From: Chloroflexia bacterium SDU3-3
GTDB taxonomy: Bacteria; Chloroflexota; Chloroflexia; Chloroflexales; Roseiflexaceae
Length of the DNA: 64,000 nt
Assembly: GCA_009268125.1 (NCBI GenBank)
Contig: WBOU01000001.1
Span: forward strand, 310,001 to 374,000
Reading direction: 5' to 3'
The position numbers and the translations under genes are program-made. A model generated the notes under the pieces. That model saw only the letters and a list, made by a program, of their open reading frames with translations. It did not search any database and was not told where the DNA came from. Within the stretch, counting starts at the first letter, position 1, and every line of letters starts with the position of its first letter. Shown piece after piece: positions 54,125-59,208 of the stretch.

Positions 54125-54877
54125 TCAACCCAACGCCCGCCCGCCCTCGCCCGCCCGCGCGAGCGTCAGCATCAGCACGCGGTAGCAGGTGAGGAACAGC
54201 ACGCTGGCCCCGCTCCCCCAGTACATCGCCTGGATGAACGGCTGGGTGGTGTCGCTTCCGCTCATCAGGCCGTGCGCGAGGGCGAGCGCGAACACGCCGT
54301 AGCTGATGGCGTGGATGGCCCGCCACGCGCGCCGCCCGAGCTGCTGCCGCGCGTAGAAGCTGGCGCAGGTGATCACCATGCCGTAGATGCTGATCTGGCC
54401 AAGGCCCACCCAGAGCTGCGCCTCCTGGGGGTAGGCGAAGGGCGTAAGGATCTGGCCGAGGCTGGCCTGGATGTAGCGGTCGCCCAGCAGCACCAGCGCG
54501 TGGAACAGGCCGAAGGCCAGGCCCAGCAGGCTGGACTGCTGGTGCAGGTCGAAGGCGGCGGGGCCGCCCGGCCAGAGCTTGGCGAAGCGGTCGGAGATCA
54601 GCAGGCCCGAGGCCATGGAGAGCCACAGCAGGGCGTAGGCCACCACCGCGCTGCTGCGCGAGAGGTACCAGAACGCCTTCGGCTCGGCCCCCAGCAGCGA
54701 GCCGCGCAGCCCCGGCAGCACCTGGGGCAGCAGCGCCAGCGCTGCTGCCACGCCAAGTGCCGTGCCGAGCGCTACCAAGGCAGCTTGGCTAGCGTGGTTC
54801 GGCGGCTGAACCTTGGTCATCTGGTCGGGCGCGCGCGGCGGGGTGGCCGTGGGGCGCTGGACTGGGTTAGCGGACAT
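54125..54877 (-). CDS. Ferric-reductase-like transmembrane protein (MsrQ/FRE type)
   Basis: 250 residues from ATG 54877, with GAGAGGAG upstream. About six helices follow a basic Pro-rich N-terminus. The helices hold likely haem-ligand histidines: FDLHQQSSLLGLAFGLFHALV in one, and WRAIHAISYGVFALALAHGL in another, the paired pattern of ferric-reductase-like b-type haem domains. No flavin or NAD domain is fused. It overlaps the ApbE gene by 11 bases. Confidence 0.82.
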   Translation of the reverse strand: MSANPVQRPTATPPRAPDQMTKVQPPNHASQAALVALGTALGVAAALALLPQVLPGLRGSLLGAEPKAFWYLSRSSAVVAYALLWLSMASGLLISDRFAKLWPGGPAAFDLHQQSSLLGLAFGLFHALVLLGDRYIQASLGQILTPFAYPQEAQLWVGLGQISIYGMVITCASFYARQQLGRRAWRAIHAISYGVFALALAHGLMSGSDTTQPFIQAMYWGSGASVLFLTCYRVLMLTLARAGEGGRALG

Positions 54878-55808
54878 AGCTCGGCTCCTCTCGGTCGGCC
54901 CAGCGGTACAGCGACATCCGCTGGCTTGTGCGCACAGTCCCATCCTCCAGCACCAGCAGCCCAGCGAGGCCAGGGCGCGACTCCAGCCAGGCCAGCCCGG
55001 CCTCGCTGCCGCGCAGTAGGGCCAGCTTGGCAGCGGCCTCGGCCATGGTCAGGTCGGGGGCGACCACGGTGGCGCTCAGCACATCGGTGACGGCGGGTCG
55101 GGCGGTGGCCGGGTCGATCAGGTGGTGCTGAGGCAGGCCGCCGCGCAGCCAGCGCCGCAGGTCGCGCCCGGATGTGGCCACGCCTACGTGGGCCAGCATC
55201 AGCATGTCCAGGTCTTCGCTCGGAGCGAGGGGGCTGGCCACCGCCACCGGCCACAGGCCCTCCGGCGCAGGCGGCGCACCCACGGCGATATCGCCGCCCG
55301 CATCCACCAGGGCCGGGCCGTAGGGCGCGAGCCGCGCCAGCGCGGCCTTGGCCGCCCAGCCCTTGGCCACGCCGCCCAGGTCGAGCCGCACGCCCTCGGG
55401 CAGCAGCACCGTGCGGCGGCAGCGGTCAAGCTTCACGGTGCGCCAGTCGGGCACAGCGGCGGGCGCGTGCGGCGGCTGAACAAGTACATCTCGCACCTGC
55501 GCAAAGTCGCGGTCGTAGCCCGCACCCTCAAGCGCGCCCAGCACGGTGGGCGTCACTAGGCCGCCCGTGGCCTGGGCCACATCCAGCGCCAGCGCCAGCA
55601 CCTCGGCCAGCACCGGGCTGACCACGGTGGCGCGACCAGCGCGGCGGTTCACCCAGCTCAGCTCGCTCTCGGGCAGGAAGCGGCTCAGCACCAGCTCCCA
55701 GCCCTGGAACCACGCGGGCACCTGCCGGAGCAGCGGCGCGTCATCCGGCAGGCGCTCCACGATCGCCAACATATGCGACCCCATCGCGCGAAACGCTATC
55801 TCGCCCAT
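54867..55808 (-). CDS. apbE: FAD:protein FMN transferase (ApbE)
   Basis: 313 residues. FRAMGSHMLAIVE, LSRFLPESELSWVNR, LDLGGVAKGWAAKAAL, ALVDAGGDIAVG and HHLIDPATARPA are the FAD- and metal-binding motifs of ApbE. It attaches FMN covalently to Thr in target proteins outside the cytoplasm. No signal peptide is obvious. The next gene overlaps it, and PepSY/FMN-binding-type partners sit in the same operon, so flavinylation of an exported redox protein is likely. Confidence 0.92.
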   Translation of the reverse strand: MGEIAFRAMGSHMLAIVERLPDDAPLLRQVPAWFQGWELVLSRFLPESELSWVNRRAGRATVVSPVLAEVLALALDVAQATGGLVTPTVLGALEGAGYDRDFAQVRDVLVQPPHAPAAVPDWRTVKLDRCRRTVLLPEGVRLDLGGVAKGWAAKAALARLAPYGPALVDAGGDIAVGAPPAPEGLWPVAVASPLAPSEDLDMLMLAHVGVATSGRDLRRWLRGGLPQHHLIDPATARPAVTDVLSATVVAPDLTMAEAAAKLALLRGSEAGLAWLESRPGLAGLLVLEDGTVRTSQRMSLYRWADREEPSYVR

Positions 55809-55821
55809 GGCTGGCTCCTCT

Positions 55822-57041: not shown

Positions 57042-57725
57042 ATGAGACTACTACTGATAGAAGATGACACCCGGCTGGCGCGGCTGATGGCCCGCGTGCT
57101 GCGCGAGGAGCATCACACGCTAGACACCGCCGCCGACGGCGAGGAAGGGCTGGATCTGGCACTCCAGGGCATCTACGAGGTGCTGGTGGTCGACTGGATG
57201 CTGCCCAGCCGCGACGGCCCCGCGATCTGCCGCGCGCTGCGGGCCGCCCGCACGCCCACCGCCATCCTCATGCTCACGGCTCGCGGCCAGCTGGAGGACC
57301 GCGTGCTGGGGCTGGACAGCGGCGCGGATGACTACCTGGTCAAGCCCTTCGCCTTCGAGGAGCTGCTGGCCAGGGTGCGCGCCCTGGGCCGCCGCTTTGC
57401 GCAGGGGCCGATCGGCGGCGAGGAGCTGCGCGCCGCCGACCTGGTGCTCGACCTACGCACCCACACGGCCCGCCGGGGCATGCGCGCCCTTGACCTGACC
57501 CCCACCGAGTGGAGCATGCTCGAATTCCTGCTGCGCCACCCTGGCCAGTCGCTCAGCCGCCAGCAGATCCTCGATTATGTCTGGTCATACGACCGCGACG
57601 TGCAGATCTCCATGGTCGATGTCTACATCTCCTACCTGCGGCGCAAGCTCAACGCCCCCGGCGAGCGAGACCTGATCGCCACCGTGCGTGGCATCGGCTA
57701 CCGGCTGGAGGAAAACCATGCTTAA
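57042..57725 (+). CDS. OmpR-type response regulator
   Basis: 227 residues. Receiver with IEDD, phospho-acceptor Asp51 (VVDWMLP), Thr79 and Lys100, and a winged helix ending SMVDVYISYLRRKLN and TVRGIGYRLEE. It overlaps the kinase gene start by eight bases. It is divergent from the PepSY/ApbE operon with a 142-base shared promoter region, so it probably controls that operon. Confidence 0.93.
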   Translation: MRLLLIEDDTRLARLMARVLREEHHTLDTAADGEEGLDLALQGIYEVLVVDWMLPSRDGPAICRALRAARTPTAILMLTARGQLEDRVLGLDSGADDYLVKPFAFEELLARVRALGRRFAQGPIGGEELRAADLVLDLRTHTARRGMRALDLTPTEWSMLEFLLRHPGQSLSRQQILDYVWSYDRDVQISMVDVYISYLRRKLNAPGERDLIATVRGIGYRLEENHA

Positions 57726-59208
57726 CGGGCTTCGCTGGCGGCTCACCGCGCTGTACGCCTGCGCCGCGCTGGCGCTGCTGCTGCTGCTGGGCGGCGGCGC
57801 GTACAGCATGCTGGCTAGCTACTTCCAGCGCATGACCGACACCGCGCTGCAGATCAAGCTCGTTCAGCAGCTCCAGGTGATCAACCAGATCCACGGCGGC
57901 GCGGCGGGGGAAGAGCACGGGGAAGGCGCGGTGATCAGCGCCGCTAGCGCCATGCAGATCGCCACGGCGGCAGCTGGGCGCGAGGCCCGCGAGGCCAAAC
58001 TGATCCGCATCCACGGCGCAGCGGTGTACGAGGTCGCTTTTGAGAAAGGCGGCAGCCTGCTGGTAGATGCCACCAGCGGTGAGCTGCGCGGCGGGCGCGG
58101 GAAAGAGAGCGAGCGACACGAGGAGGACGATGACGGCAGCTACGAGACTGAGCTAGCCGCCATCGGTGTGATCCTGCTCGACGCGCAGGGCCACGTGCTG
58201 GACGACCAGGGCAGGCCCACCAGCACGATCAGCCCCAACAGCGCGGCGCTGGCCCAGGCCCTGGCCAGCGGCAGCGACCTGCGCACCGGCAGCGCCGATG
58301 GCACGCCCACGCGGCTGCTGACCCACCGCGTGGGCCTAGGCGATGTCGCCGCCATCCAACTGGCCCGCCCGCTCGGCGACCAGCAGCGCACCCTCGGACA
58401 GCTCATGCTCACGCTGGTGGGGCTGGGCGGCATCAGCGTGGTGCTCGTGGCCTTCAGCAGCTGGTGGCTGGCGGGCAGCGCCATCCGGCCCGCCCAGATC
58501 GCCTGGGATCGCCAGCAGCACTTCATCGCCAGCGCCAGCCACGAGCTGCGCACGCCGCTCACGCTCATCCGCGCCAGCGCCGAGGTGGCCCAGCGCGCAA
58601 GCGCCAGCAACGACCAGCGCGAGATCCTGGGCGACCTGCTGGCCGAGTGCGACCATATGGGCGGGCTGGTGGATGATCTGCTCACGCTCTCGCGGCTGGA
58701 CAGCGGCAACATGCGGATGCAGCCAGAGCTGGTGGCGCTTGGGCCGCTGATCGAGGATGTGGCGCGCCAGATGGGGCGGCTGGCCGAGGAGCGCGGGGTG
58801 CGGCTGCTGGCCGAGCCGAGCGCGGCGCAGGCCTGGGCCGACCCCACACGACTGCGCCAGGTGCTGCTCATCCTGCTCGACAACGCGCTGCGCTACACCC
58901 CGCAGGGCGGCAGCATCGCCATCGGCGCCACCGAACAGGGCAGGCGCACGCTGATCCAGGTGCGCGACACCGGCGCAGGCATCGCCCCCGAGCACCTGCC
59001 GCGCGTGTTCGAGCGCTTCTACCGCGCCGACAGCGCGCGCGGCGCGGGCAGCGGCAACGTGGGGCTGGGCCTCTCGATCGCGCAGGGGCTGGCCAGGGCG
59101 CACGGCGGCGAGCTGATGATCGAGAGCGAGCTGGGGGTGGGCACGCAGGTCACACTCGTGTTAAAAAAAGACATTTCTGCAAACAAGATCGCAGTTTCGC
59201 ATCGATAA
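57718..59208 (+). CDS. Sensor histidine kinase with PepSY-like sensor domain
   Basis: 496 residues from ATG 57718 with GGAGGAAA upstream. Transmembrane helices ~15-37 and ~232-252 flank an outside domain whose first half reads ISAASAMQIATAAAG and YEVAFEKGGSLLVDATSGEL, a PepSY pattern. Then HisKA FIASASHELRTPLTL (His275), N box DNALRYTPQGG, G1 DTGAGI and G2 GNVGLGLSI. The HAMP domain is short or absent. Confidence 0.9.
   Translation: MLNGLRWRLTALYACAALALLLLLGGGAYSMLASYFQRMTDTALQIKLVQQLQVINQIHGGAAGEEHGEGAVISAASAMQIATAAAGREAREAKLIRIHGAAVYEVAFEKGGSLLVDATSGELRGGRGKESERHEEDDDGSYETELAAIGVILLDAQGHVLDDQGRPTSTISPNSAALAQALASGSDLRTGSADGTPTRLLTHRVGLGDVAAIQLARPLGDQQRTLGQLMLTLVGLGGISVVLVAFSSWWLAGSAIRPAQIAWDRQQHFIASASHELRTPLTLIRASAEVAQRASASNDQREILGDLLAECDHMGGLVDDLLTLSRLDSGNMRMQPELVALGPLIEDVARQMGRLAEERGVRLLAEPSAAQAWADPTRLRQVLLILLDNALRYTPQGGSIAIGATEQGRRTLIQVRDTGAGIAPEHLPRVFERFYRADSARGAGSGNVGLGLSIAQGLARAHGGELMIESELGVGTQVTLVLKKDISANKIAVSHR

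Follow-up and report, generated by a model that had tools for sequence, protein, structure and literature searches.

A PepSY/ApbE/haem-protein operon in Chloroflexales and a putative C-terminal flavinylation site on its small membrane-tethered protein

The sequence analysed in this study is a stretch of 64,000 nucleotides from Chloroflexia bacterium SDU3-3 (contig WBOU01000001.1), referred to as the window, and all coordinates count from its start. It contains an operon on the reverse strand which faces a two-component system on the forward strand. The operon begins with the gene of a protein that spans the membrane once and carries two extracytosolic PepSY domains (56195-56899; PF03413 in two stretches, E 4e-21), of which domain 1 is encoded at 56459-56626 and domain 2 at 56252-56413. 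It continues with the genes of a small exported protein of 110 amino acids without a family match (55822-56154), hereafter called the tail protein, and of an ApbE, a flavin adenine dinucleotide (FAD):protein flavin mononucleotide (FMN) transferase (54867-55808; PF02424, E 4.7e-43, with solved ApbE structures as relatives). The last gene encodes a ferric-reductase-like membrane protein of 250 amino acids (54125-54877; Pfam PF01794), in the following termed the haem protein. In the opposite direction, an OmpR/PhoB-type response regulator (57042-57725) and a membrane sensor histidine kinase (57718-59208) are encoded. Residues 73-124 of the kinase form an extracytosolic PepSY domain (57934-58089, E 2.1e-5).

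All of these genes are real, and they are arranged in the order described by an initial annotation of this DNA. The same annotation had suggested a flavin/haem electron-transfer module opposite a PepSY kinase, and this view is supported by conserved synteny: in about 20 Chloroflexales loci, the kinase and regulator genes face the series PepSY protein, small gene, ApbE and haem protein. Loci of relatives, which were compared within Chloroflexota and Actinomycetota, are labelled with numbers of the type L001. Some members of the window's own family show another order, with the haem protein gene preceding that of ApbE (PepSY, small gene, haem protein, ApbE; L093, L095 and L096). One genus of the order has its ApbE gene on another contig or distant from the PepSY and two-component genes (L076, L098, L099 and L079), and the tail gene of L079 extends past the contig end.

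The genome from which the window was taken possesses a single ApbE. Profile searches of this whole genome revealed no FMN_bind (PF04205), no NqrB/RnfD (PF03116) and no DUF2271 domain (PF10029). Among 350 Chloroflexota genomes, a strong match to the window ApbE was obtained in 167, not counting the window's own genome, and 120 of these 167 lacked FMN_bind. Six of 60 close relatives possessed FMN_bind, each time together with a second, divergent ApbE on the same contig, at a distance of no more than about 1.2 kb. Since an ApbE needs a target and the known target domains searched for are absent from the genome, the acceptor is likely the small protein of the operon itself. The earlier statement that no FMN-binding target is encoded can thus be extended to the whole genome for the three domains, but it does not cover the C-terminal tail of the small protein, which is the likely target within the operon.

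The tail protein is composed of a positively charged N-terminus, one transmembrane helix and an Ala/Pro-rich linker, and it ends with the residues TRSSR (55825-55839, reverse strand), of which the second Ser (55828-55830) is the proposed flavin acceptor. S-S-R are the invariant last three residues in 19 aligned Chloroflexales orthologs and the Thr of the tail is nearly so, whereas the linker is not conserved. An AlphaFold2 model, based on an alignment of three sequences, showed one helix (residues 14-33) and low confidence elsewhere (mean predicted local distance difference test score, pLDDT, of 55), and the linker is accordingly modelled as probably disordered. The tail codons vary synonymously among the relatives and all three stop codons are in use, which argues that selection on the tail acts on the protein. 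A conserved 3' end serving as a ribosome-binding or other RNA element for apbE is ruled out by the same synonymous variation, by the three stop codons and by the variable distance to apbE. A truncated FMN_bind protein with a lost domain was likewise rejected, because orthologs across the order end at TRSSR and none of them runs into such a domain.

A small gene for a transmembrane helix followed by a low-complexity region was found directly upstream of ApbE in 87 of 117 unique loci. The positive-inside rule placed the tail outside in 76 of these 87 proteins. More distant ApbEs of Chloroflexota and Actinomycetota are directly preceded by a gene for a protein with the same architecture and other endings. 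ApbE recognises the motif D-x-x-[ST]-G-A-[ST], of which the last residue receives FMN; a flavin tag seven residues long performs best at the N or C terminus of a protein (PMC12052999). Exact [ST]GA[ST] endings, with the preceding Asp of the motif absent, occurred as TSGAT (L008), SSGAS (L007), GTGAS (L006) and GSGAS (L021 and L156). These exact forms graded without a break, via SGSRAS (L159), RTRAS (L003, L158 and L165) and RTRTS (L002), into TRSSR (Chloroflexales and others). Further endings were VSGGS and TSGGS at many loci, RTRVS (L161), RTRSS (L152), TRSSGS (L005) and SHSSN (L095 and L096). When T-R-S-S is aligned with S-G-A-S/T, the second Ser would take the place of the acceptor and would be followed by one extra Arg.

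The pattern [ST]x[AGSTV][ST](x) was present at the end of 76 of the 87 tails, compared to 6.0 expected when tails were shuffled (500 times, with at most 13 matches), and SSR endings were observed 31 times compared to 0.07 expected; the pattern was composed after the tails had been seen and the loci are related and hence not independent, so that these counts describe its strength and are no test of a prior hypothesis. Of 523 control open reading frames of similar make-up located away from ApbE, 20 showed the pattern, and roughly half of the 20 were further members of the tail family. The small Ala/Pro-rich protein had been regarded as an unassigned component; conservation of the tail and the series of tails across loci indicate that it is probably the ApbE acceptor instead.

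The window ApbE shows the signature TSGRDLRRW and has retained Ser213, Arg218 and His229, whereas Glu257 occupies the position of the triad Asp and Lys261 that of a Thr. For comparison, the catalytic triad of the Vibrio cholerae enzyme consists of Ser241, His257 and Asp285 (PMC12052999). In a phylogenetic tree, a single supported branch set the 68 sampled tail-cassette ApbEs apart from the 19 FMN_bind-linked ones (Shimodaira-Hasegawa-like approximate likelihood ratio test, SH-aLRT, 96). In the tail clade, TSxxxxR(R)W precedes the motif HH[LI]xDP; it is absent from the FMN_bind-linked ApbEs. A hydrophobic N-terminus or signal peptide was detected in none of 70 window-type ApbEs and in none of the 19 FMN_bind-linked ones, and the window-type enzymes look cytosolic as judged from their sequences. 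A survey of flavinylation excluded genes with neither signal peptide nor lipidation site (PMC8238504), and this filter may be the reason why such pairs of ApbE and tail were missed.

The haem protein matched PF01794 with an E-value of 3.4e-5 and 24.3 bits, which is below the curated cut-off of 28 bits, and it comprises the membrane domain only, without a flavin or nicotinamide adenine dinucleotide (NAD) domain. His 112, 126, 189 and 202 were invariant in two alignments of 23 and 12 relatives, and the pairs 112/126 and 189/202 are predicted to form two bis-His haem b sites. The AlphaFold2 model of this protein (pLDDT 79) gave SpNOX and STEAP2, STEAP4 and STEAP1 as top Foldseek matches, with weak E-values and high probability.

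From these observations, it is rather probable that the operon specifies an electron-transfer module outside the cytosol, with the extreme C-terminus of a small membrane-tethered protein, and not a folded FMN_bind domain, as the substrate of ApbE. ApbE would move FMN from FAD onto the second Ser of the TRSSR tail, and the transmembrane helix would hold this flavin carrier beside the membrane protein with its two haems. The haem protein would feed the flavin tag, and the disordered Ala/Pro-rich linker would allow the tail-borne flavin to swing from the haem protein to an acceptor outside the cytosol and back; this acceptor may be metal ions bound by the tandem-PepSY protein. Both transcription units would probably be controlled via a shared promoter box by the divergent two-component system, whose kinase possesses the one PepSY domain that the genome encodes outside the operon protein.

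Several points weigh against tail flavinylation. The sequence TRSSR does not match the canonical motif D-x-x-[ST]-G-A-[ST], as it contains neither the Gly nor the Asp, and its reading as a flavin site depends on the series of intermediates that starts from [ST]GA[ST]. With a strict filter, 30 of the 117 loci were without a tail gene, several of them holding one on direct reading. The triad Asp is replaced by Glu in window-type and by Asn in Actinomycetota-type ApbEs, and activity of these enzymes is therefore putative. Furthermore, ApbE has no signal peptide, yet the tail is predicted to be outside, and modification would consequently have to come before export. Such a modification ahead of export would be the simplest way to reconcile a cytosolic ApbE with an outside tail, and it would go well with a site at the C-terminus, the part that exits the cytosol last.

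In the whole genome, the number of PepSY domains is exactly three: the operon protein contains two of them and the kinase the third. The pattern YEV...VDA.SG(Q/E), which the initial annotation had emphasised, is indeed present in both proteins, but it is a generic PepSY signature and was therefore discarded as a special feature; the genome-wide count is the stronger point. The operon protein belongs to PF03413 and spans the membrane once, and it differs from the PepSY-like electron carrier with three transmembrane helices (PF03929/PF16357) known from work on flavinylation, the comparison with PF03929 giving an E-value of 0.3 only. Against solved structures the match was also weak (E 0.29). Its orthologs end in strongly acidic tails rich in Asp, Glu and His, which often contain His (56195-56240 in the window), and the kinase has an acidic stretch directly after its PepSY domain. 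It is possible that these tails and this stretch bind cations.

Between the divergent genes, a perfect tandem direct repeat of 11 nucleotides, TTTTCCAATCT in two copies (56998-57019, forward strand), was found and is proposed as the response-regulator box; TATACT at 57028-57033 of the same strand may be the -10 element of the regulator-kinase promoter. The sequence TTCCAAN5TTCCAA occurs once in the genome of 6.76 Mb, namely in this shared promoter. A similar box is located at the same place in L068, L073, L074, L077, L080, L100 and L107, and several other loci are without any; in L068, L074 and L100, the mirrored form TTGGAAN5TTGGAA is additionally present. The TTTTCCAATCT box may be the site of the regulator for both transcription units, and its uniqueness supports local regulation without proving it.

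In this context, it had been proposed that the state of the module is sensed by a related PepSY domain. That the PepSY domain of the kinase monitors the state or the flavin of the operon PepSY protein and tunes expression of the operon is conceivable, though we would regard it as tentative; it is compatible with a flavinylated tail and does not exclude it. The location of all three PepSY domains of the genome in this locus and the promoter box speak in its favour, as does the pair DbfQ-DbfS, in which a PepSY protein directly binds the neighbouring kinase (PMC12714742). A PepSY domain is present in the kinases of L079, L082, L083, L086 and L090 and weak in that of L077, but it was not detected in the kinases of four loci with the same cassette (L068, L072, L088 and L071). 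Sensing by the kinase PepSY domain is therefore not a fixed part of the system, and the proposal does not hold in general.

Alternatively, the tail protein might be an assembly or docking factor that attaches with its C-terminus to ApbE, to the haem protein or to the acidic PepSY tail, and ApbE would then flavinylate another target, for example the PepSY protein or one encoded elsewhere. The Chloroflexales tail is basic and the ends of the PepSY orthologs are acidic, and basic tails co-occur with acidic-ended neighbours (Fisher p 8e-4, uncorrected for ancestry), which gives rise to the idea of electrostatic docking. We consider this unlikely, because many loci with SGGS or SGAT tails keep the pairing with ApbE without an acidic-ended neighbour, the exact [ST]GA[ST] ends are the enzyme's own motif, and the known target domains that were searched are absent from the genome. 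No better are the chances that the tail remains in the cytosol and provides an inner-side flavin for the haem protein in place of the dehydrogenase domain of NOX and ferric reductases; the missing flavin/NAD domain of the haem protein and the predicted cytosolic location of ApbE would fit, but the positive-inside rule places most of the tails outside. Least probable is a loss of FMN transfer in this ApbE clade, which would then act as FAD hydrolase or other FAD enzyme while the tail was kept for another role, for example as envelope-sorting or proteolysis signal: the exchanges of the triad Asp, the Lys at the nearby Thr position in the window type and the missing signal peptide would agree with it, but the catalytic Ser and His are retained, the tail variants track the flavinylation motif and adjoin ApbE in two phyla, and FMN_bind-linked ApbEs of the same phylum lack signal peptides as well.

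Next to the haem protein gene, an AIPR-family gene with 34-39% guanine plus cytosine is located within surroundings of 66-75% (52171-54072, forward strand). Its top PADLOC match was AbiU (E 1e-43), that to MzaE being weaker, and it is probably an acquired phage-defence gene. The convergent AIPR and ferric-reductase-like genes are separated by an inverted repeat (AGAATACACTTCTT / AAGAAGTGTATTCT, 54071-54108), likely a terminator common to both. A gene at 59530-60249 (forward strand), downstream of the kinase, encodes a Ferritin_2-like protein that apparently carries a twin-arginine translocation signal (GRRKFL), and a relative lies about 2 kb past the haem protein in L078, which hints at a link to iron.

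According to the flavinylation survey, there are still orphan ApbE genes, as well as substrates yet to be found (PMC8238504). Somewhat better than even are, in our estimation, the prospects that the tail proteins represent a widespread class of ApbE substrates, namely short membrane-tethered disordered proteins with a C-terminal flavinylation site, which are modified in the cytosol before export by ApbEs of the TSxxxxR(R)W clade, act in Chloroflexota and Actinomycetota as shuttles for electrons and account for many of the orphan ApbEs. If so, no natural ApbE substrate would be simpler than such a disordered tether ending in a tag of few residues. Searches for flavin carriers would have to change, as domain searches are blind to the tail and signal-peptide filters on ApbE discard it. 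It would also provide an extracellular electron-transfer route that is directly testable in culturable Chloroflexales and Actinomycetota, and protein labelling would gain alternative tags and transferases of natural origin. What is likely new is the kind of substrate, namely a disordered, tethered protein with a natural flavin tag at its C-terminus; no prior description of a C-terminal-tail substrate of ApbE was found in the literature searched, whose coverage leaves out most subscription journals.

The locus shares features with several known systems. In the MsrQ-like flavinylation systems (Meheust et al. 2021, PMC8238504), ApbE is encoded beside a PF01794 protein with six helices and two haems, to which the haem protein of the window, with its match below the cut-off, would correspond. 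An FMN_bind gene is typical of these clusters, though not strictly required, and a signal peptide or lipidation site was a criterion for their collection; the locus described here lacks FMN_bind, its ApbE is without signal peptide, and a C-terminal tail is proposed as acceptor. The ApbE substrates DUF2271 and DUF3570 (PMC8238504) resemble the tail protein in lacking an FMN_bind domain and in being neighbours of orphan apbE genes, but they are domains with [ST]GA[ST], whereas the motif of the tail protein would be formed by the last residues of a disordered chain. That a short terminal ApbE motif suffices for flavinylation is known from the Flavin-tag (Tong et al. 2021, reviewed in PMC12052999), an engineered D-x-x-[ST]-G-A-[ST], of which the tails would be the natural and variant counterpart. 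On the side of the PepSY proteins, UipA/UipRS of Microbacterium (via PMC8963506) also combines a single-pass tandem-PepSY protein with an adjoining regulator and kinase. UipA is reported to bind uranyl and iron, while the likeness of the window is one of genes; ApbE, the haem protein and the tail protein are added in the window. Adjacent modules of PepSY protein and two-component system are widespread (PMC12714742), and in DbfQ/DbfRS of V. cholerae (PMC12714742) a PepSY protein is also encoded beside the two-component system. However, DbfQ contains a single PepSY domain and is not accompanied by a flavin/haem operon, whereas in the window the kinase bears a PepSY domain as well.

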